32,484 nucleotides of DNA from an uncultured Desulfobacteraceae bacterium (GTDB lineage Bacteria; Desulfobacterota; Desulfobacteria; Desulfobacterales; Desulfobacteraceae): NCBI GenBank assembly GCA_913041495.1, contig CAJWHT010000043.1, positions 1 to 32,484 of the forward strand, given 5' to 3'. The notes under the pieces were generated by a model that was not told where the DNA came from, made no database searches, and worked only from the letters and a program-made list of their open reading frames with translations. The first letter of the stretch is position 1, and each line of letters starts with the position of its first letter. A program made the position numbers and the translations under genes. Positions 6,741 through 23,138 of this stretch are shown here, one piece after another.

Positions 6741-7859
6741 TCAAATTAAAAACCAGGACACCGGCCGCCGGAGTGACACCGGATCAGGGTAGTCGTCCAC
6801 ATATCCTGCCCGCAGCATGAACTGGGGGATCATACCAGGCTCGTGATTCTCACGGATCTGACCTTTGCCATGGGGTTCTTCCAGGGTCTGGGTCATGGGG
6901 TGAAGGGCAATATTCATCTCCCTTGCCATCAGCGCCATGCGCTGAAACCGCCTGCCGGCCTCAATAAGATCGGCCACGTCCTTTCCCGGACTTGTAATCA
7001 CCAGCCATCCGGCACCTTCCCGGACCTGCCCGGCCACTTTATCAATCGCTTTGCTCCGCCAGGTTTTTCCGCGGACCTCATCCACATCCATAAAATGCCG
7101 TACCCACCAGCCGGCCAGGCCATGGATTTCCATACCATCCGGGGTTAAACCGTCCCTGAATTTGACTGCATCCCTGTCCGACAGCCGGGTCCAGGCCGCC
7201 GCTTCCGACATGGCCGCCTCATTTTCAAACTGGATCCTGAAATTTTCCAGTGCCGCCTCCGCCATCCACTGCCCGTGCTCCGATGCGTTTGGAAAATAAT
7301 ACAGCCCGCCGCCGGTAAGCGCTTCCATCCGCCGGATGTCCGCGGCTAAGAGTTCCCGGGACAGCAACCCGGTTTTAAGGGTCCGCCGGGTGGTAATCCG
7401 CGAAAGGGGTATCTCCTTGGCCTTTCCCTGGCTCAACCGAACCCGCGCCACATCCTGATCATGACGCTTCTTTGCCAGCACCTCCACCTCAGCCTCAAAG
7501 CCGTTTGCCGATGCCGCCTGCACCAAATTCTCCAGAAATGCCCCCATGGAAAGCAGGGCCTCCCGGTTATCCGGATCCACTTCCGGCAGCCACCGGCGCG
7601 GATCCGACCCCACCACCCAGACATCTTCCGATTCAATCCGCACAAACCAGGGCTGGCTGTTGTGTCCGCTGGGCGCAAGGGAGGCATAATAAAGAATCTC
7701 CCATCCCCAGGGAGCCAGTGCCGTCCCCTTACCCGCCGCTCCAATGTCCGGCCCGGCGATCTCATCCCTCAAATTCCGCGAGCATCCAAGGTTCCCCAAC
7801 CCAGTTCCCATCAGCAGAGAAACCGCCGCCCCCTGCCGGATAAATTCCCTTCGATTCAT
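6741..7859 (-). CDS. Tat-exported nitroreductase-like (Acg-type) flavoprotein
   Basis: Probable FMN-binding nitroreductase-fold protein acting outside the cytoplasm. The N-terminus MNRREFIRQG plus a hydrophobic stretch is a twin-arginine signal; LGNLGC at the end of the signal could be an atypical lipobox. Next come LAPSGHNSQPW (the FMN-phosphate region typical of Acg-like nitroreductases), two-half nitroreductase features such as RITTRRTLK, and a late GKGQIRENHEPG loop. The length, 372 aa, suits a fused pseudo-dimer. The open frame begins at GTG 7868, but ATG 7859 with AAGGGG 8 nt upstream gives a classic Tat signal. A palindrome at 7875-7890 lies just before the start and is shared with the upstream tetR gene. 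Substrate unknown. Confidence 0.75.
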   Translation of the reverse strand: MNRREFIRQGAAVSLLMGTGLGNLGCSRNLRDEIAGPDIGAAGKGTALAPWGWEILYYASLAPSGHNSQPWFVRIESEDVWVVGSDPRRWLPEVDPDNREALLSMGAFLENLVQAASANGFEAEVEVLAKKRHDQDVARVRLSQGKAKEIPLSRITTRRTLKTGLLSRELLAADIRRMEALTGGGLYYFPNASEHGQWMAEAALENFRIQFENEAAMSEAAAWTRLSDRDAVKFRDGLTPDGMEIHGLAGWWVRHFMDVDEVRGKTWRSKAIDKVAGQVREGAGWLVITSPGKDVADLIEAGRRFQRMALMAREMNIALHPMTQTLEEPHGKGQIRENHEPGMIPQFMLRAGYVDDYPDPVSLRRPVSWFLI

Positions 7860-7874
7860 ACGCCTCACCCCTTT

Positions 7875-7910: not shown

Positions 7911-8528
7911 TTACCCGATCAGCCCCTCTATGAGCCTGTCAATACCCGCCGCAATCCGATCCCAGTCGTCATCTGTTACCAACCCGATCCCCCCGTAAAT
8001 ATCAATATGCCCGGATCGGATCAGAAGATAATTCACCCCGGCCCCAACAATCATAATCCCGGCCTGCCGATCCTCATCCGGAAGCTCTGACACAAAAAAC
8101 ATCCGGAAAAAATCCATGATCCGTTCCTCCCGGACCGCTTCAAGCTCCCGGGTCAGCTCATTGGCTTCCACCACTTCCCAGGCCATAATGGCGACAGTCA
8201 AGGGCCGCCGCCGCAAGGCTGCAATAAAATTCCGGGAAAAGGCAGACAGCCGATCCTCCAGGGGCATCCGCCCGAAGGCCTGAAGATCCCCCCCGGCCAG
8301 CTCCAGCAACGACGGCCAGAAATCGCCTTCCTTTCCAAAAGCACCGATCAATCCGGGAAGACCGCCGAAGTACCGGTAGATCAGCTTTTTGTCCACCCCG
8401 GCCTCCCGGGCCACGGCATTCACCCCGACCCCCTTGAACCCTTCCCGGGCCAAAAGGCTTCCCACCGCTGCAATCAGGCGCCGGCTGGTAATCATCTTAT
8501 CACGGATTTTAACTTCGTTTTTTGCCAT
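7911..8528 (-). CDS. TetR-family transcriptional repressor
   Basis: DNA-binding repressor. The N-terminal helix-turn-helix is clear (SRRLIAAVGSLLAREGFKGVGVNAVAREAGVDKKLIYRYFGG), followed by an all-helical ligand domain of about 140 residues with no recognised subfamily match. The open frame reaches a TTG at 8558, but that start would overlap the operator at 8541-8556; ATG 8528 (MAKNEVKIRDK) gives 205 aa and places the palindrome 12 nt upstream, parallel to the arrangement at the next gene. It lies directly upstream of the nitroreductase-like gene with a 51-nt gap, same strand. Most likely it represses itself and that gene, releasing both on binding a small, perhaps electrophilic or aromatic, ligand. 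The ligand is inference only. Confidence 0.85.
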   Translation of the reverse strand: MAKNEVKIRDKMITSRRLIAAVGSLLAREGFKGVGVNAVAREAGVDKKLIYRYFGGLPGLIGAFGKEGDFWPSLLELAGGDLQAFGRMPLEDRLSAFSRNFIAALRRRPLTVAIMAWEVVEANELTRELEAVREERIMDFFRMFFVSELPDEDRQAGIMIVGAGVNYLLIRSGHIDIYGGIGLVTDDDWDRIAAGIDRLIEGLIG

Positions 8529-8540
8529 GCCACACAACAT

Positions 8541-8556
8541 ATCACCACTCGGTGAC
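8541..8556. promoter_or_regulatory. Putative TetR operator 2, autoregulatory site upstream of tetR
   Basis: ATCACC-ACTC-GGTGAC, five of six half-site pairs complementary, same arms and 4-nt spacing as the site at 7875-7890 but with a different spacer sequence. Located 12 nt upstream of the preferred tetR ATG. Confidence 0.68.
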
Positions 8557-8724
8557 AAAAATCAAGTTCAAGCTGACCTCAGGCCGAAACACGGGTTACG
8601 AATATTTTTTCTGCCGAAAGATGGACGATACATGTGGGGGCTGAATTAAAGATGGATGTATAGTCAAAATATTACATATTCATCAATCTTGGCTATATTT
8701 AACCAGCCCCCTTTGGGTCACAGG

Positions 8725-10792: not shown

Positions 10793-11410
10793 TTAGACAT
10801 CGTCCTCGTCAAAGTAATCCGGATAATGTTCTTTCCAGCATTCCGGGCAGATGCCGTGCGACAGCCGAGCATCAGTATTTTCTTCCAGATAGACATCTAT
10901 CCGGTCCCATATCTGATGATCATTTCTTATTTTATGGCAGTGGGAGCAGATCGGGATGATTCCCTGGAGCGTTTTGATATGCGCCAGCGCCTCCTGCAAT
11001 TTTGCATTGGTTTTTTGAACTGTTCTGGCCGTGTTATTAAGATCCTGATTCAGGTCTGATACCTGTTTGCGCATCAATTCCATTTCACCCACATCTTTAT
11101 GCCCGAATACAAGGATCTGATCGCCCTGTTGAGAAAAGACAAAGTAAAAACTGGAAGGCTCACCCGCTGCGGTCTGAATCGTCAGCAGATGTGATGTATC
11201 AGGGGCTTCAAGGCATCTTCTGATGTCAAAGATGTTCTGAAAATCAACCAGGACCTCTGTGAACCGCAACGAGCGGACAGCCTTACCGCAGACCGATATA
11301 GCGAATTGATTGCACTCTTTTATATTTTCTTGAAGATCCAGACGGAAAAAAAGAATAGGGGCACTTTCTTTCAGATACAAATAGATCTGCTGTAATCCTT
11401 TTGTGTCCAT
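10793..11410 (-). CDS. PAS-like/coiled-coil protein with C-terminal paired CxxC motifs
   Basis: 205-aa cytoplasmic protein. Residues 1-107 resemble a PAS-like sensor (LFFRLDLQENIKECNQF; FYFVFSQQGDQILVFG). Residues 108-150 are a heptad-rich coiled coil. Residues 151-198 match the cysteine module often found at the C-terminus of delta-proteobacterial response regulators and PAS proteins: IPICSHCHKIRND (Cys155, Cys158), an aromatic-rich middle, then SHGICPECWKEHYPD (Cys188, Cys191). The four cysteines could bind zinc or act as a redox switch. There is no kinase, receiver or DNA-binding domain. It begins 23 nt after the cobalamin-binding gene, so the two probably form an operon and may work together. 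Confidence 0.72.
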   Translation of the reverse strand: MDTKGLQQIYLYLKESAPILFFRLDLQENIKECNQFAISVCGKAVRSLRFTEVLVDFQNIFDIRRCLEAPDTSHLLTIQTAAGEPSSFYFVFSQQGDQILVFGHKDVGEMELMRKQVSDLNQDLNNTARTVQKTNAKLQEALAHIKTLQGIIPICSHCHKIRNDHQIWDRIDVYLEENTDARLSHGICPECWKEHYPDYFDEDDV

Positions 11411-11433: not shown

Positions 11434-12063
11434 TTATGCGATCAGTGATTCCAACTCGTCTAATGAAGCAATATAACGTGTGTTGGGATAGTTGTTGACG
11501 ATGTTTTTCCCTCCCCGGTTAAAAGCTTGCCCCCCCACCAAAAGATCGAGGTGCGGGAAGTCCGATGTCACCGCTTCAATTGTTTTTCTCAATGCCGGCA
11601 TATTAAAGTACACGCTCAGGGATAATCCCAGCAGGTCGGGATTAACCTCATCTATGAATTTTAACAGATCTGCCAAAGGGGTGTTGGCCCCCAGAAAATG
11701 GCAGTCCCAGCCGTTGAGTTCAAAGAAATCAGCCACTATTTTACTGCCGATCTGATGATATTCGTTGGCCGCACATGAAACAATAGCCGATTTTTCTTTG
11801 TGGGGGGCACTGAAAAGTACCGGGTAGACAAGATTCAAAAGGCTTTCGGTCAATGCTGTGACCATGTGCTCCCTGGCAACGGTGATCTGGTTGGTCTCCC
11901 ATAATTCGCCGACCTGATACAGGCTTTTCTGAAAAAGGTTGACGTACAGCATTTTCAAATCAATCTTCCGGTCCAACAGATCCTGCACGATCCGGGTGCA
12001 GGTTTCCCGGTTGCCGTTTCTCAGGGCGGAAAAATATTGCTGATACATTGAGGAACTGATCAT
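11434..12063 (-). CDS. Stand-alone cobalamin-binding protein with CarH/AerR-type W-x9-EH motif
   Basis: 209-aa cytoplasmic protein: a four-helix cap (about 1-88) like that of methionine synthase and CarH, then a Rossmann-like B12-binding domain. The cobalamin signature is present as EYHQIG (101-106, His103 the likely lower axial ligand; the usual Asp is Glu), with GLSLS and LVGGQAF downstream. The cap contains Trp55, nine residues, then Glu65-His66: the W-x9-EH motif that in CarH/LitR and AerR places the Trp and acidic-His pair against the adenosyl group of adenosylcobalamin for light sensing. The MerR-type DNA-binding domain of CarH is absent. The residue after Trp55 is Glu, not the His that CarH uses as upper ligand after photolysis. 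AAGGA 6 nt before ATG 12063 supports the start. Confidence 0.83.
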   Translation of the reverse strand: MISSSMYQQYFSALRNGNRETCTRIVQDLLDRKIDLKMLYVNLFQKSLYQVGELWETNQITVAREHMVTALTESLLNLVYPVLFSAPHKEKSAIVSCAANEYHQIGSKIVADFFELNGWDCHFLGANTPLADLLKFIDEVNPDLLGLSLSVYFNMPALRKTIEAVTSDFPHLDLLVGGQAFNRGGKNIVNNYPNTRYIASLDELESLIA

Positions 12064-12445: not shown

Positions 12446-12481
12446 CAAAAAAATCCCGGCAATCGTTGTGATCGCCGGGAT
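12446..12481 (-). terminator. Rho-independent terminator of the 12538-12966 gene
   Basis: On the minus strand an 8-bp stem (ATCCCGGC / GCCGGGAT, arms 12474-12481 and 12453-12460) with a 13-nt loop is followed directly by a run of seven T. It lies 57 nt past the stop of the exported protein gene. Confidence 0.75.
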
Positions 12482-13595: not shown

Positions 13596-16500
13596 TTAGC
13601 TGACCCGCTCGATCAACGCTTCAAGGGCGGGCAGCGCATCTTTGAATTTGTATTTTGCGATGAGCCGGCTGATCTTTGATATCTCGGCCTGGATATCATC
13701 TGGCCAGCGGACCTGCAGGATCCGTTCGATAAGTGGTTTGCACCGTTTGGGTTTGCGTTTTCTGACATGGGGAAGAAGCTCCGAAAGCCTGGCCGGTAAA
13801 GATCCAAGATCCCCCTGGTTCGCCTCTTCTGCAGGTGCTTTTCTTTCCTCTGCCGTTTCGGATATGGGTTTGAGGACGGCCAGAACCTGGGCCAGCGTTT
13901 TTTCAAAAGCGGTGAGAAGTTCCTGATACCGGTCCTGTTCCCCATTCTTGATGGCCGATTCCAGACTGGCGGCAACGGTCTGGAGGTCAGTGGCGCCGAT
14001 TGTGCCGGACACGCCTTTTACGGTGTGGGCGATGCGCTGGGCTTCGGAAGGGTTCTCACCGGCAAGGGCGGTGTCAATTTCATTTACCGCGTCTGAAAAA
14101 CTTGTGACGAACTTGCCCAGCATATTCATGTACAACGTTTTTTTGCCGGCTGTCCTGGCCAGGCCTGCGTCCACATCTATTCCGGGAAGATCCGGGATTT
14201 CGACCTCGGGGGCGGCCTTTACAGGTCCTCTGTCCGTACTGCTTTGCGGACCGGTTTCCGCACCTGCGGATTCCGGCAGGGGCCGCTGCCGGTGGGGTAT
14301 CCATTTGAGCAGCACGGAAAACAAGGCCTTGACGTTGACCGGCTTGGCCACGTGATCATTCATACCGACCTGTTCAGCCATTTCCTTATCCTGGGTCATG
14401 GCGCTGGCGGACATGGCAATGATGGGAAGGCTGTCAAACCGGGGCTCCTTACGAATGGTCAAGGTGGCTTCATAACCGTCCATCACAGGCATCTGCACAT
14501 CCATGAGAACGGCATCAAACTCAGTTTCCCGGACAGCGTCAACACCGATTTTGCCGTTTTCGGCAATGGTCACCACAAGGCCGGCATCCTCTAAAATCTC
14601 CTTTGCCACCTGCTGGTTGATCTCGTTGTCCTCCACCAGCAGAATGCGGGCGCCCCGGATGGGTTTGGCCATTTCCGCCTCAAATCCCTTGTCAGAGACC
14701 AGGGTGCGGGCCTCGGCCTTTCCGTAGGCCAGCATGACGGCGTTGAGCAGGCCGGAGGGCGAAATGGGCTTGATCAGCAGACCGTCAAGACCTGCGCGGT
14801 TCACAGCCGCCCTGGCTTCCTCCTGGGCAAAGGCGGTGACCAATATGATTTTCGGAGGCGGCGTATTTGATTCTGCCAGGATCTTTTCCCCCGCCTCGAT
14901 GCCGTCCATATCAGGCATCTGCCAGTCCATGAACACCATATCGTAGGGACGGTCATCATCTTCGGGACGGTTAATCCGCTCCAGGCATGCCCGGCCGGAG
15001 GATGCTTCCTCCACCGAAAAGTCAAAGGTCTGCAGCATTTCAACCAGGATCTGGCGGGCCGTCGCATTATCATCCACCACCAGGACTTTGAGATCTTTGA
15101 GGTCGTCCGAAAGCTCCCGGTCGGAAACGGCTGTCTGTTGCCCGATACCGAAGGTTGAGGTAAAAATGAATTCACTTCCCTTGCCGGGTTCGCTCTCCAC
15201 CCAGATGTCGCCGTGCATCATATTCACCAGACGCTTGCTGATGGTCAGCCCCAGTCCGGTGCCGCCGTATTTCCGGCTGGTGGAGGTGTCGGCCTGGGAA
15301 AAGGCAGAAAAGAGCTTGGACCGCTGTTCCTCGGTAAGGCCGATACCGGTGTCCCGGACGGAAAACCGGACGGTTACCCGCTCCGGGGTTTGCTCCACCA
15401 GGGCAGTGGTCAGGACAATTTCACCTTTTTCCGTGAATTTCACCGCATTGTTCCCAAGATTGATCATCACCTGGCCCAGACGCAGGGGATCTCCCACAAG
15501 GAAGGGCGGAATCTTGGGATCAAGGCGGAAAAGCACTTCCAAACCACCCTTCTCCCGGGCTTTGACCGTCACCAGGTCTGCCACGTGGGCCAGGGTTTCC
15601 GAAAGGTTGAAATCGATTTCCTCGATATCCAGTTTTCCCGCTTCGATCTTTGAAAAATCAAGGATATCGTTGATGATCCCCAAAAGGGAATTGGCCGAAG
15701 AATCAATCTTTTTCACGTAATCGTACTGCCGGGCGGTGAGGTCCGTTTTTAATGCCAGGTGGGCCATACCGATGATGGCGTTCATGGGGGTGCGGATCTC
15801 ATGGCTCATATTAGCAAGGAAATCACTCTTTGCCCGGGTTGCGGATTCAGCCTCACGCCGTGCCTCGGCCAGGTCTTCCATGATATTCAAAGTGGCCACC
15901 CGGGACCGGTTCAGTTCCGTTACCTGGTCCTGGAGTTCCGCCTGCATGGCCTTCAGTGAACTGATATCCACCAGCCATCCCAGAATACTGGGCCGGCCGT
16001 CGTAGGTCATCGGCATATAGGTCACCAGGACGTCAATGGGGACTCCCCCCTCGCCGCGCAGCTGAATTTCCCTGTTGGAAACCATGCCGTCGCGTTTCAG
16101 GGCCTCTATCAGCGGGGCCCTGTCCTCGGGATTGAGGTAAACGTTTGTAACCGGCTCACCGATGCTGACATCAAGCATCTTCAGGTACCTGGGATTGGCA
16201 AACCTGATGACATTGTCCGTGGAAACACCTATGGCAATGGGGCTTTTGTCCAGGATAAGCTTCAGGGTTTCCTGCTCCTGCCGGATCTTTTCTTCCATCA
16301 GCTTGCGTTCGGTCACATCGATAAAACTGTCCAGAAGATGGGGGACACCGTCAAGCATCATGGTGACCACGGTCCTGAGTATGGGAATCTGCCTGTCTCC
16401 GTCAGCGATCAGGAGTCCCTCCGTATTGTCTCCCGCGCCGGTGGCGGTCCCGTCCGCCGTATCTTGCCCCTCTGCGGCAAACTCCCGGTACCTGCGGCCG

Positions 16501-18551
16501 ATGATCTCGTCCCTGTCCAGGCCGATCATCGCGGCAGCCACCGGATTGGCATCGGCAATGATCCCGGTCTCCTTGTTGACCAGAAAAAGGCCGGTACTGA
16601 TGGCGTTCAAAATCGTCTGAACCCGTTGTTCGCTTTCCCTGACAGCGGCTTCCGACCTGACCCGTTCGGTGATGTCCCGCACCGTCCCTACGATAAACCA
16701 CCGGTTCTCCATCTGAAAGGGGGACAGATTCACTTCCACGGGAAAGGACAGCCCCTGCCTGTTGACCGCAGTGGTCTCAATGGTGGAATCAAAGGCCTTG
16801 CTCCTGCCGGTTCGTGCAAATTCCCCCAACCCCGCTCTTGCCGCCTCCCGGTTCTCTTCGGGTATGGCGATCTCATGGAATTCAAGACCATGGGCTTCCT
16901 GTGCAGAAAAGCCGAAAAGTTCTTCAGCCGCATGATTCCAGAACCGGATCTTTCCCCGGCTGTCAACCATGACCAGGGCATCGCTGACCGCCTGGCTCAT
17001 GGCCCGGGTTTTCTGTTCTGCCAGGGTGCGGTCCCGTACCTCACGGGAGAGTTTCCGGTTGGCATAAAAAAAGACACCGAGCACAACCAGGGAGACCCCA
17101 AAGATGGAAAGCCCCACCCCCCACACCGTCCGCCAATCCACCCGCGATTCCACACGGATGTTCACCCAGCGGTCTTCAAAGCTGCGGCGGTCCGCTTCGC
17201 TGACGGCGGCAAGGGCCTTGTTCAACACGGAGACCATCATGGGCCAGTCCTTGCGTACGCCAAAGCTGAGATCAAGGGTACGTGGCAGGGTTGCCGCCAC
17301 CTTCAGCCCTTTGATCCGGCCCGCCCGGGCAGCGTAAGTCACAGAGGCATTATTGCCGATGGTGGCATCTGCATCCCCGTCCATCACCGCCTGAAGGGAA
17401 GCTTCAAGGGTAGAGGTTTTTACCAGCCGGATCTCCGGATGCTCAGTTAAAAGCATCTCTTCCATGGGAGAGGATTCGATGACGGCGACCCGTTTTCCGG
17501 CCAGTCCTTCAAGCCCTGCCACAAAGGGCATATCCTCTTTTGTCACCAGGACGATGGGAATCCGCAGATAGGGGTGGGTGAAATCAAGAAATTCCTTTCG
17601 TGACGGTGTGGGGACCACAGCCGGCAGGATATCGATCCGGCCCTGTTTGGCATTTTCAATCACCGCCTGCCAGGTCAGCCCCGGGACCGGGGCCATGGAC
17701 AGGGCCAGTTTACCGTTGAGCCAGGCCACATACTCGGACACCATACCGCTGTACTGCCCCTCTTTGCTGATCCCCTCAAACGGAAGCCAGGCAGGATCCA
17801 CACCGAGCCGAATGTCCCGGTGCGCCACAAGCCAACGTCTCTCCTCTTCTGTCAGGTATAGATTTCTTGGGGCTTCCGATCCCAGGTAGGTTTCCTTGAT
17901 ATCATTGAGTTCTTTTTGTGACAGGGAGTCCAGGCCTTTTTGCATCACCGCCTTAAGCATCTTTTTTTCGGCATTGATTCCCATGGCCAATTCAAACCGG
18001 TGATCCTCGAAATACCCCACAATCTTCAGGTCAGTCAAAAAATGCTGGTCGGTCAGATAGTTGCCCACGGCCAGGGTCCCCATATAGGCGTCAGCCTTTG
18101 CCGTACTGACGGCCTTGAGCGCTTCCAGGGTATTGGGAACCAGCAGGAGGCGGGCGTCCGGATGGTTGGCCTTAAGGTATTCCTGCTGATAATATCCCGA
18201 TTCCACGGCAATGGTCTTCCCTGAAAAATCTTTCAGGGATGTGATGTCATTCCTGCCCTTCTTCACCCAGATGGCATCCTGGGATGAAATATAGGCCGAT
18301 GTGAAAACCAGGTAGGCCGTTCTCTCCGGCGTTTTTCTCAAGGCCGGGCTAAGGTCCAGTTCCCCTGACTTCAGCCTGGGCCCGTTTTCACTCCAGGGCT
18401 TTACTTCGATGCGGGCCGTAAGTCCCGCTACGCCGGGCTGCCAGGCGGAGAATATCGGCGGAAATACCGCGGTAACTGCCGTCGCTGTCCACAAACTCAA
18501 AAGGGGGCCAGTCCGGGGTGCCGGCCACGCGGACGACCGGATTTGCATCAA
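13596..18551 (-). CDS. Giant hybrid sensor kinase, C-terminal part (half SBP3, SBP3, TM, 3 PAS, HisKA-HATPase, 2 REC, HPt)
   Basis: C-terminal piece of one gene split from the frame at 18388-20847. Only residues from about 43 (GLTARIEV) are genuine; the first 42 are out-of-frame translation. Order in this 1651-aa frame: rest of SBP3 domain 4 (43-222), SBP3 domain 5 (244-462), transmembrane helix (476-496), three PAS domains (about 515-635, 640-750, 760-870), HisKA with phospho-acceptor His917 (MSHEIRTP), HATPase with N box NLGNNAVKF (1031-1039) and DTGIG, receiver 1 (Asp1209), receiver 2 (Asp1351), HPt with His1509 (AHTVKG), and a basic tail. All phosphorelay residues are intact. The SBP domains face the periplasm and should bind amino acids or similar solutes. 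No output response regulator is encoded nearby. Confidence 0.9.
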
Positions 18552-20847
18552 CCCACGCGCGTTCAGCAGGGGTGAGCACCACCCGGTTCCCTTTGTCCGT
18601 TAACATCCCCAGCCCCAGCCAGTTTGTGCGCAGCTCGTTGATTTCCCCTTCGGTCAAGGCATCCAGCCCCTTTTGGAGGATGTCACGAAGCAAGCGCTGT
18701 TCTTTCATGACAGCAATGTGCAGCCGGTTGGCCTCGGGATTTTCAAGGGAAACTTCATCCACGATCCGTATGCCCGGAATCAGATTTTCCTTGAGCAGAT
18801 GGGAAATAACCCCGAGACTTCCCACAAAGGCATCGGCTTTATTCAGGGATACGGCTTTGAGCGCCTCAAGGACACTGGGGAATTCAACCGGTTCAATGAC
18901 CGGATAAAGGTCTTTGATCAGATCGTTGATGGAAAATCCGGCCACCACCGCCAGCCTCTTACCATCCAAATCCTGAAGGGAACGGATACCCGAACGATTT
19001 TCATGCACGACCATGACCGAAGGGTTTGCCGCATAGTGCCCGGTCAGGGCCATCTGCTTTTCCCTGGCCGGTGTCTTGTAAATGGCCGGCAGCACATCAA
19101 TGTCACCGGCTGTGAATTTTTCCAGAAGCTGTGCCCAGGTAAATCCGGACACAAACGTCAGGGGCAGTCCCACCTTTGCCGCGGCAAGGCGGATCAGCTC
19201 GTTTGAAAATCCGGTGGGGCGGCCGTCTTTGACAAAGTCAAAGGGGGGCCAGTCCGTTTCCGCTCCCACCACCACCGGCCTTGACCGCCTTGAGATCCAG
19301 CTTCGCTCTTCAGGGGTTAGCCCTGTTACCTCAACAGGCTTGGTTTCCAGCCATCTGGCCCGCAACGCCATAAGTTCCTGGTGACGGATGCGTTTCAACC
19401 CTTTTTCCAGAATATCTGCCAACATGGGATTGGAGTTATGGATTCCCATCCTGAACGCCCCGGCTTCCGAAACCTTTCGGGCGGCGACTTTGAGGTTGCT
19501 GACCAAAGAATGGCCCTGTATGCGCCGGTACCGTATCAAACCTGCCACGGCAGCATCTGCCCTTCCGGTGTTCACCTGGTCCAGGGCTTGGTGGAATCCC
19601 TCGGTAAGGATCAGCGTCCCGTTCTTTCCAATGACTGTTTTCACATCCAGTACAATGGCGCTTTCCCTGGTAACCGCCACCCGTTTGCCTTTCAGGTCGC
19701 CCCATCTGGAGATTCCCGTATTATCCTGCCGCACCAGCACCAATTGCGGGACAAAGGCATAGGGTTCTGTAAAACGGAGCGATTTCATACGTTCCGGGGT
19801 CCGGGACAGACTCATGGCCATGTCGGTTTCACCTGATATGGCTGACCCGACCACATCTTTCCATCTGGATTTGAACACCGGCACAAATTGCAGCCCGGTG
19901 CGTTCGGACAACAAGGCGAGTATCTGGGCGTTCAATCCGTCAAATCGCCCGCTTTTATCCACAATATCAACCGGACTCATGTAATCGGTAACGGCCACTG
20001 TCACTGCCGGATGCGTCCTGATCCAGGCCTCTTCATCAGCGGTAAACTGTTTGGCCTGCAGCAACCGTTCATAATAGCGATCCGCAGGCGATGGCAGCCA
20101 GCGGGCTTCACGCTTTGCCATCCGGCCCACCGGGAGTTTATCAAAACCGTCATTAATCAGCGTTAGGAGGTCTTTTCTATCCTTGCGTACAGCAGCGACC
20201 ACAGGGCTGGAAAAAACGGCCACGGTACTTTTTGACAGCAGGCCGCGGACACCGAAGGCTGCCAGGACCGTCTCGACATTGACGTTTTCACTCAAAATGG
20301 CGTCAACCTCCCCATTGAGCAACGCCAATACCAGCTTCCGGCCGTCGGGAAAACCTTTTACCTGAATCCCCTCTTCCCGGGCGGCAAGGTATTCATACTG
20401 GTAGGAATCGCTTATGGCCCCCACCTTTTGGCCGGCCAGATCCTTAAGCGATCTTTCCGAGTCATGATCCGTTCTGAAAAAAAGAGACGTGTTGATGTTG
20501 TGGATGGGTTGTGAAAATGCAAACCACCGGGCCCGCTGTTCATTGGCAATAAGGCCTGAGTGTACGTCCGCATGACCGGTCTTCACCGCCTCAAGGGATC
20601 CTTTCCAGTCATGGGCCACAAAGGTGACGGGTACGCCGGTCTGCCGGCTCCACAACCGCCACATGTCAACGAAGAGGCCGGCAGGTTCACCTGTGGGAGA
20701 GCGCACTGAAAAGGGCGGATACGCATCGGCGATTGCAATCGTCAGGGAGTTTGGCTCCTGATCTTTGGCCAGAACACCTGTAACCGGGGCACAAAGCCCC
20801 GATATCATAAACAACAGCACCAGATATTTATACACCTTATACAACAT
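18388..20847 (-). CDS. Giant hybrid sensor kinase, N-terminal part (signal peptide, 3.2 SBP3 domains; frame-shifted)
   Basis: N-terminal piece of the same gene. Signal peptide or anchor ([20 protein letters not shown]), then SBP3 domain 1 (about 33-251, [14 protein letters not shown]), domain 2 (281-500, [13 protein letters not shown]), domain 3 (523-745, [16 protein letters not shown]) and the first lobe of domain 4 (771-808, [17 protein letters not shown]). Each starts after a conserved LTxEExxW linker, as in EvgS-type sensors. After Gly808 (18426-18424) the frame runs into [11 protein letters not shown] and stops at 18388, whereas the -strand +1 frame continues the domain as [10 protein letters not shown]. 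Dropping one base of GGGA joins the two frames into about 2416 residues. The gene begins 20 nt after the HAMP-PAS gene, with a weak ribosome site. Confidence 0.85.
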
Positions 20848-22352: not shown

Positions 22353-23138
22353 CTATTCCAGATAACGCGATACAATACGCTCGATATCGCCGTCTGCCTT
22401 GGCATCGGCCAGCGCTGCATCAACCGCATCAATGACGTTTTGTGCATCGGGGTATGTTTTTCTCAGTCCGAAGTGAAACTTTCCCGGAGTGGCGATATCA
22501 GGCACTTCCCGCACCGCGATTCGATCCTTGAGGCCCAGTTTATTAACAATGGCCCTGACCACCAGGCCGTTGCCCACAAAAATATCGTACCGGTGGGCAT
22601 CCAGCAGCTTGACAGCCTGTTCAAGGCTGTTGACCCAATGCACGTCAAGATCCTTGAACCACTTCTTGGCCCACCCGTTTCCCCGGTGGTCCACCTGCCG
22701 GAAGGGCCTGAGGTCCTCAATCACTTCCACCCGGTCGATGCTGTCCTTGCGGGGGTTGGTATGGCTGGTGAGAATAACGACATAACTTGTTACAAAGGGC
22801 TTTTTCGTAAAATAGGCAAAGGCCTTTCGCGCGTCAGTGGGGTTTGTGCAAAAAGCGTCGGCTTCACCGCTGCGAACCTGCGCCTGGGCCCGCTGCCACG
22901 GATACCCACGGTGTTCCAGCGGCCTGTCCATGCGCTGTCCGATAACAGCATCCAGCGCATCAACCAGAATCCCCTGCATCCGGCCGTCCTGCTTAACACT
23001 CAATGGACTGAACTTATTATAGTAGTTGATTCTTATCACGCCGGAACCGGCATACGCGCCTACGGAGGTTACGATCAAAAAAACAATGCCGACTATTGCA
23101 GACATTGGATAATGCCGTCTCTTTGAATTCACCGTCAT
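22353..23138 (-). CDS. Periplasmic solute-binding protein, SBP family 3
   Basis: 261 aa with a Sec signal (MSAIVGIVFLIVTSVGAYA after a short basic lead) and an SBP3 fold: VIRINYYNKFSPLSVKQDGRMQG, WQRAQAQVRSGEADAFC, YFTKKPFVTSYVVIL, and a C-terminal lobe ending DAALADAKADGDIERIVSRYLE. It is of the type used alone by sensor systems: no ABC permease or ATPase lies beside it. It is the first gene of a three-gene unit (18 nt, then 20 nt gaps) with a HAMP-PAS sensor and a kinase that itself has five SBP3 domains. AGGTG 7 nt before ATG 23138 supports the start. Ligand not predictable. Confidence 0.87.
   Translation of the reverse strand: MTVNSKRRHYPMSAIVGIVFLIVTSVGAYAGSGVIRINYYNKFSPLSVKQDGRMQGILVDALDAVIGQRMDRPLEHRGYPWQRAQAQVRSGEADAFCTNPTDARKAFAYFTKKPFVTSYVVILTSHTNPRKDSIDRVEVIEDLRPFRQVDHRGNGWAKKWFKDLDVHWVNSLEQAVKLLDAHRYDIFVGNGLVVRAIVNKLGLKDRIAVREVPDIATPGKFHFGLRKTYPDAQNVIDAVDAALADAKADGDIERIVSRYLE

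Follow-up and report, generated by a model that had tools for sequence, protein, structure and literature searches.

Light sensing by B12-binding proteins is already known. So are photocobilins, and separate globins have been found associated with B12 proteins and heme oxygenase (PMC10151467, available text). Photocobilins are described in the available part of PMC10979010 as binding adenosylcobalamin (AdoCbl) in the base-off form on a lower His, with the adenosyl group held by a Trp and a Glu-His pair at a dimer interface; in photocobilins and in CarH, light frees the adenosyl group and the Glu-His helix shifts. Bilin biosynthesis-associated globins occur with B12-binding proteins and heme oxygenase, for example in Myxococcales and in pre-2 clusters (PMC10151467). 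As far as the available sources describe them, the B12 photoreceptors that we compared are either single polypeptides with fused outputs or, in the case of AerR, act on one transcription factor. The accessible portion of the open-access literature yielded no account of the Desulfobacteria group described here, of its PAS adapter and the interchangeable outputs of that adapter, or of a B12 photoreceptor in a sulfate reducer.

We analysed a B12-binding protein encoded in a stretch of 32,484 nucleotides from an uncultured Desulfobacteraceae bacterium (contig CAJWHT010000043.1), referred to below in its full length as the window. The gene probably encodes the subunit that senses light through AdoCbl in a split, photocobilin-like system, the output of which would run in trans through a PAS protein.

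Residues and kinship of the B12-binding protein

The gene lies on the minus strand at 11434–12063, begins with ATG and encodes a stand-alone B12-binding photosensor-type protein of 209 amino acids, as judged from its open reading frame and Pfam. The helical cap matched B12-binding_2 (PF02607) at residues 8–77 with 52.6 bits and the B12 domain matched B12-binding (PF02310) at residues 93–182 with 60.1 bits, both over cut-off. The original prediction had read W55-x9-E65-H66, EYHQIG and His103 from this frame, and the codons bore this out, with Trp55 at 11899–11901, Glu56 at 11896–11898, Glu65-His66 at 11866–11871 and His103, within E-Y-H-Q-I-G, at 11755–11757 (all minus strand). In an alignment of 40 close stand-alone rows, G52, W55, E56, E65, H66, E101, H103, G106, G125 and P129 were each present in 40/40; the identity of W55, E56, E65, H66, E101, H103 and G106 in every row shows that the pattern is not due to chance. 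By alignment, Trp55 would be the cap Trp that stacks on the adenosyl ribose in photocobilins, Glu65-His66 the pair at the adenosine pocket and dimer interface, and His103, by homology to SasPcob His108, the predicted lower axial cobalt ligand (PMC10979010, available text). We infer AdoCbl binding and photolysis for this protein.

The 40 rows were chosen such that near-copies were left out (L022, L023, L043, L045, L046 and L063), as were contigs present under two locus numbers (for example L039/L013, L041/L017, L042/L020 and L077/L049), repeats of longer loci in L010-L038, and broken copies (L053, G288 and the second copy in L061). Eleven photocobilin-type rows were counted apart from the 40.

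SignatureFinder gives GxxW, EH, GxxH and GxxxP as the signature of light-responsive B12 domains (PMC11796333, available text). Three of these four parts are present in the 209-residue protein: GxxW as G52-E-L-W55 and EH as E65-H66, each found in 40/40 relatives, and GxxxP as G125-A-N-T-P129, with both the G and the P in 40/40. The GxxH part is missing, as N100-E-Y-H103 has Asn at the place of the Gly; Gly is found there in 3/40 rows and is lacking in 37/40. In CtMerR the contact at GxxH is described as being made through a main-chain carbonyl, so the loss of this Gly may be tolerated (PMC11796333, available text). Strict use of the published signature would drop 37 of the 40 members examined. 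The W-x-EH and E/DxH motifs of photocobilins are both present in the protein.

Glu56 occupies, by alignment, the position of the His that becomes the upper ligand of CarH in the light state, which we take to be His132. A Glu at this position had been predicted and was confirmed, and it is found in 40/40 rows. The suggestion that this Glu alters the signal was rejected: the residue is invariant in the group, His is found beside the cap Trp in 0/11 photocobilin-type rows (Q in SasPcob, Y in AbPcob), and the light state of SasPcob is described as water- or hydroxide-ligated, being reached with no second His and with none of the large movement seen in CarH (PMC10979010, available text). Glu beside the cap Trp was also found in two MerR-type rows. 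The protein resembles the photocobilins SasPcob and AbDPcob in its Trp/Glu-His cap, its E/DxH lower ligand and the lack of a His beside the Trp (PMC10979010, available text).

Trp-x9-Glu-His had also been put forward as a signature of CarH, LitR and AerR proteins. The pattern is indeed common to CarH and photocobilins, but it could not be shown to mark AerR, as the sole AerR-like row (L102, found close to chlG in Sulfitobacter) carries the Trp without the Glu-His. Judged by this single row, membership of the AerR family is unlikely; in the tree described below, L102 fell outside the stand-alone group, on a branch of length 4.2. Like Thermus CarH (L098), the protein combines a cap and a B12 domain with Trp, Glu-His and a lower His; unlike CarH, it lacks a MerR DNA-binding domain, has Glu for the His beside the Trp and falls on a separate branch.

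The best solved-structure matches were the photocobilins 8j2w, 8j2x and 8j2y (E 3.7e-21 to 2.3e-17), followed by 8jbs, 4jgi (46.4 bits; named merely 'putative uncharacterized protein'), methionine synthase (36.3 bits) and CarH 5c8a (30.6 bits). That CarH scored below both 4jgi and methionine synthase counts against a photosensory role. The NCBIfam models for CarH (46 bits, cut-off 400) and pyl_corrinoid (39 bits, cut-off 215) both scored below cut-off. Kinship was examined in an unrooted maximum-likelihood tree of 62 rows, in which the 40 close stand-alone rows lay on one side of a branch with support of 99/100. Six corrinoid rows, five from the same genome and one encoded beside a trimethylamine methyltransferase, lay on another branch (98/98) that did not include the 209-residue protein. 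The 11 photocobilin-type rows were nearest to the stand-alone group without forming one group themselves; Thermus CarH, the AerR-like row, L103, L008 and AbPcob were long branches of unsure placement.

These comparisons bear on whether the protein is instead a corrinoid protein of a methyltransferase system with a drifted cap. It shares both Pfam domains with such proteins, the weak pyl_corrinoid match points the same way, and 4jgi outranks CarH in the structure search; nevertheless, we give this reading almost no credence, because the tree places the protein apart from all six corrinoid rows, Glu replaces Asp in DxHxxG, and no methyltransferase was found among the 22 window ORFs scanned. Methyltransferase corrinoid protein was accordingly rejected as an identity on the 98/98 branch. 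The original prediction had named close kinship to methanol or methylamine corrinoid proteins as one of the results that would overturn it; the tree instead placed photocobilin-type proteins nearest. It had also stated that no methyltransferase, activase or MerR domain was nearby, and a Pfam scan of the 22 window ORFs, with small and overlapping ORFs left out, agreed in finding no corrinoid methyltransferase, activase or MerR protein.

A PAS-type partner gene and its outputs

The description of the protein as free-standing did not hold if it is taken to exclude a partner: a PAS-type gene lies 23 bp past the B12 stop and is conserved beside the family. Overall, the original prediction was confirmed in what it observed and partly supported in how it interpreted the observation. 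The partner gene (10793–11410, minus strand) encodes 205 amino acids comprising a PAS domain at about residues 17–104 (11099–11362, from AlphaFold and Foldseek), a coiled-coil linker at residues 107–151 (10958–11092) that forms a single long helix in the model, and a Cys4 module (CxxC...CxxC) with the pattern ICSHCHKIR...SHGICPEC at residues 144–205 (10796–10981), modelled with low confidence; all are on the minus strand. No Pfam domain, PAS included, was found over cut-off in the partner protein, and a solved-structure search with the PAS-Cys4 sequence gave just two chance-level matches (E 0.7). The AlphaFold model had a mean pLDDT of 79 and, for the whole model, a pTM of 0.54; its PAS-like region was confident, with pLDDT of 83–95 in the 10-residue blocks covering 11–110. 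Foldseek returned 78 matches at E <= 0.001 with this model; the 50 listed were PAS-type proteins and included the AppA-PpsR2 complex 4hh3.

The same-strand region within 3.5 kb contained this PAS domain in 36/40 loci, a count that is partly circular since the PAS profile (24 rows) was drawn from 23 of the 40 counted loci, the matches of which are expected by construction. Of the matches, 24 had E <= 1e-47, that in L060 had 3e-10, and 11 were weak (2e-6 to 3e-9) and may be partly due to the coiled coil. The partner was absent from four loci, namely L083, where the contig ends 277 bases downstream, and the Ignavibacteriota loci L050, L051 and L052; in these last three, a same-strand search out to 3.5 kb found neither a PAS partner nor a globin. 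In L063 (= G132), left out of the 40, the PAS match came in two pieces, and in L061 (5979–9498) the B12-PAS pair is present in tandem, with the second B12 copy matching as two separate pieces.

Two members of the close stand-alone type lie outside the class; they contributed no rows to the profile, and both had the PAS domain next door (6e-58 and 3e-45). At the other B12 loci of the phylum scan, PAS was matched weakly in 7/8 (4e-12 to 1e-4). Among 291 genomes of the class, 27 had the PAS domain; 23 had both B12 and PAS, 12 stand-alone B12 only, 4 PAS only and 252 neither (Fisher 1.7e-21, shared ancestry ignored). In the same scan 31/40 PAS stretches lay within 3 kb of a B12 match and 9/40 had no B12 match nearby. 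As judged from gene order, the B12 gene and the PAS partner gene are a conserved pair.

The nine PAS stretches away from any B12 match, together with the Ignavibacteriota members without a PAS gene, would fit a photosensor whose PAS protein is a mere neighbour and whose output runs through an unlinked protein. We consider this quite improbable, given that PAS adjoins the B12 gene in 36/40 loci and in both close out-of-class members, that 7/8 other phylum loci show it, if weakly, and that the PAS domain appears on three output types while its B12 neighbour stays. From the pairing we infer that the B12 protein contacts the PAS protein and signals through it.

The three output types are HisKA-HATPase, GGDEF and Cys4 proteins. 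A Pfam scan of 16 partner proteins of relatives found a kinase ATPase domain in 13/16, 10 of these with HisKA over cut-off; GGDEF was found in 2/16 (L039, L069) and the Cys4 module alone in 1/16 (L056). The PAS-Cys4 form occurs at 4/40 loci (the window, L056, L061 and L065). Across copies in the host genome the Cys4 pattern reads 'ICxxCKKIRDDxxYW...SHGICPEC' and has no Pfam match; the module had 18 matches in this genome, itself included, and in seven further copies it was C-terminal, on proteins of receiver, membrane or periplasmic-sensor-like type (domains read by eye). A Cys4 protein was found among the genes downstream of the enzyme-form partner at ten loci, with a receiver domain on 9/10 of these proteins (L062 lacks it). 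In the window, kinase and receiver are absent from the pair and PAS is joined straight to Cys4, which suggests that a pathway of sensor, kinase and receiver-Cys4 has been shortened to sensor and PAS-Cys4.

CrtJ has PAS domains and, unlike the partner described here, which carries a Cys4 module instead, binds DNA. The window pair would otherwise resemble AerR-CrtJ, in which a free-standing B12 photosensor is encoded with a PAS-type partner that it controls in trans (PMC9144470, available text); it differs in that AerR is represented by the single row L102, without Glu-His and on a long separate branch.

A terminator-like hairpin with a 12-pair stem and a T-run (12453–12481, minus strand) lies between an upstream 163-aa ORF and the B12-PAS pair. 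The search found 4 terminator-like sites versus 2.4 expected in shuffles, and 2 promoter-like sites versus 3.1 expected, so the latter provide no promoter evidence. No Rfam family was matched over the window at gathering score, and hence no cobalamin riboswitch at that score.

Globins and heme oxygenases in related loci

In 22/40 loci a separate globin-like gene of about 155 amino acids lay no more than 3.5 kb away on the same strand. Its product shows homology to the N-terminal region of photocobilin-type proteins of the fused kind (E 5e-34 for L086 and 3e-26 for Ilyobacter). When a separate globin was modelled (pLDDT 89), the first 14 PDB fold matches were phycobiliproteins and smURFP with TM of about 0.6; these matches were weak (E 0.02 and up, 0 at E <= 0.001), and a solved-structure search with the globin sequence gave nothing at E <= 1. 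Globin matches, separate or fused, occurred in 37/291 genomes of the class, 36 of them with a B12 match, and 40/43 globin stretches, separate or fused, lay within 3 kb of a B12 match. As judged from their gene content, the loci of relatives are photocobilin parts laid out as separate genes.

Like photocobilins, many relatives thus have both the B12 and the globin parts. Unlike photocobilins, they encode the two in separate genes, the 209-residue protein consisting of cap and B12 domain only; in the host genome no globin was found, and the output would run in trans through an unfused PAS protein. Two photocobilin-type rows, L087 (4206–6400) and L088 (5886–7064), are likewise unfused B12 proteins (open frames of about 260 amino acids). 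Each has a separate globin gene in its vicinity, which shows that splitting extends beyond the group of 40. Interrupted stand-alone B12 copies were seen beside a full-length globin match at L053:5001–5600 (Desulfotignum) and G288:C123:129008–129607.

Heme oxygenase was found in 7/291 genomes of the class and lay within 3 kb of a B12 match in 5/7. Four of these five B12-linked heme oxygenases were joined to a globin-like half, which gave hhalign probabilities of 76 per cent with photocobilin globins and 0.4 per cent with the separate globins; it is likely, from this profile comparison, to be homologous to the photocobilin globins. The fusion was found on the same strand near 4/40 loci. The class scan found the heme oxygenase itself at L071, L059, L067 and L064. 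At L071 (6679–8013), L059 (6656–7987) and L067 (4743–6005) the fusion is upstream of the B12 gene on the same strand, and at L064 (2887–4197) it lies on the other strand at a distance of about 1.8 kb. It was only the globin half that gave a match at L047 (3450–4952) and L105 (2176–3627), where the stretch is likewise upstream of the B12 gene and on its strand.

These loci resemble the systems of PMC10151467, in which globin and B12 proteins are separate and heme oxygenase is encoded either as part of the cluster or at another site of the genome; a PAS partner with exchangeable outputs and the Desulfobacteria group are not described in the available text of that paper. Placing sensor, globin and output on separate genes, with one PAS adapter for three outputs, would widen the photoreceptor family. 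Such a group from anaerobes would also offer a natural parts kit for green-light control.

In the host genome neither a globin, by single-sequence or profile search, nor a heme oxygenase was found at the thresholds used, although the assembly, at 328 contigs and 99 per cent completeness, may have a gap hiding either. With neither found, absorption by B12 should be the only route by which light acts on the window copy.

The accompanying genes also bear on a possible role as a cobamide-status sensor, in which the protein would signal AdoCbl to its PAS partner, or the balance of adenosyl against methyl or hydroxo cobalamin and with it redox state or B12 supply, any photochemistry being incidental. 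An anaerobic life would suit this, and with 17 B12-domain matches in the host genome, 14 of them over cut-off, a cobamide gauge could be useful. We judge it unlikely, since the residues of the adenosyl pocket are those of photoreceptors and since relatives pair the subunit with phycobilin-type globins, some also with heme oxygenase, which suit light and have no evident use in gauging cobamides.

Proposed mechanism and genomic context

If the protein is the light sensor that we favour, then in the dark His103 would be the lower ligand of base-off AdoCbl, and Trp55 and Glu65-His66 would hold its adenosyl group, a state that would favour a photocobilin-like head-to-tail dimer. Green light would break the Co-C bond and shift the Glu65-His66 helix, which would alter either the dimer or the way in which it touches the PAS domain. 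The PAS-coiled-coil would pass this change to the output, in the manner of AerR and CrtJ (PMC9144470, available text). In relatives the signal would mostly reach a PAS domain on a histidine kinase, the gene of which is often followed by one for a receiver protein ending in Cys4; the window copy would be a short-circuited form of that pathway, leading from PAS straight to Cys4.

Some anaerobic microbes may therefore sense light by a modular, two-protein version of this recently discovered photoreceptor family, and such a group would make their reason for doing so directly testable. Heme oxygenase needs oxygen. As biliverdin is made only with oxygen, a heme oxygenase-globin complex would report light and oxygen together, which, if true, would warn an anaerobe of daytime oxygenic photosynthesis. 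We put forward, tentatively and as more doubtful than the sensor assignment itself, that sulfate reducers use a modular light input in which a B12 photosensor, an optional bilin globin and a PAS adapter lead to a kinase, a diguanylate cyclase or Cys4, that the heme oxygenase-globin loci report light and oxygen, and that the window copy, with B12 alone, marks the most pared-down form in this range.

The host had been predicted to be a sulfate reducer, and its genome agrees, with dsrA far over cut-off. It also encodes a cobalamin adenosyltransferase and a protein (L006) that we take to be a methylmalonyl-CoA mutase; on this gene content AdoCbl is probably available. A sensor of this kind had been thought unexpected in a sulfate reducer; the 209-residue protein was matched at E <= 1e-15 in 56/291 genomes of the class, 35 of them with the close stand-alone type (identity of 42 per cent or more and an unbroken match). 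The distribution is patchy, and within the host's own genus a match was found in 4/15 genomes listed, the host included. A scan of 297 genomes of the phylum found 2 with close stand-alone members outside the class (331.8 and 313 bits), and a scan of named genomes added Desulfonatronovibrio (L040) and the three Ignavibacteriota loci.

Elsewhere in the window, a dodecin gene (PF07311; 13229–13498) lies on the other strand between the B12 pair and a large hybrid histidine kinase of 1651 amino acids (13596–18551) with SBP_bac_3, PAS, HisKA, HATPase, receiver and Hpt domains. This kinase clusters with genes at 18388–20847 (three SBP_bac_3 stretches) and 22353–23138 (SBP_bac_3). At 6741–7868 the window encodes an Acg-family FMN-binding oxidoreductase (NCBIfam NF047509, 239.7 bits, over cut-off), beside which lies a TetR-type regulator at 7911–8558.
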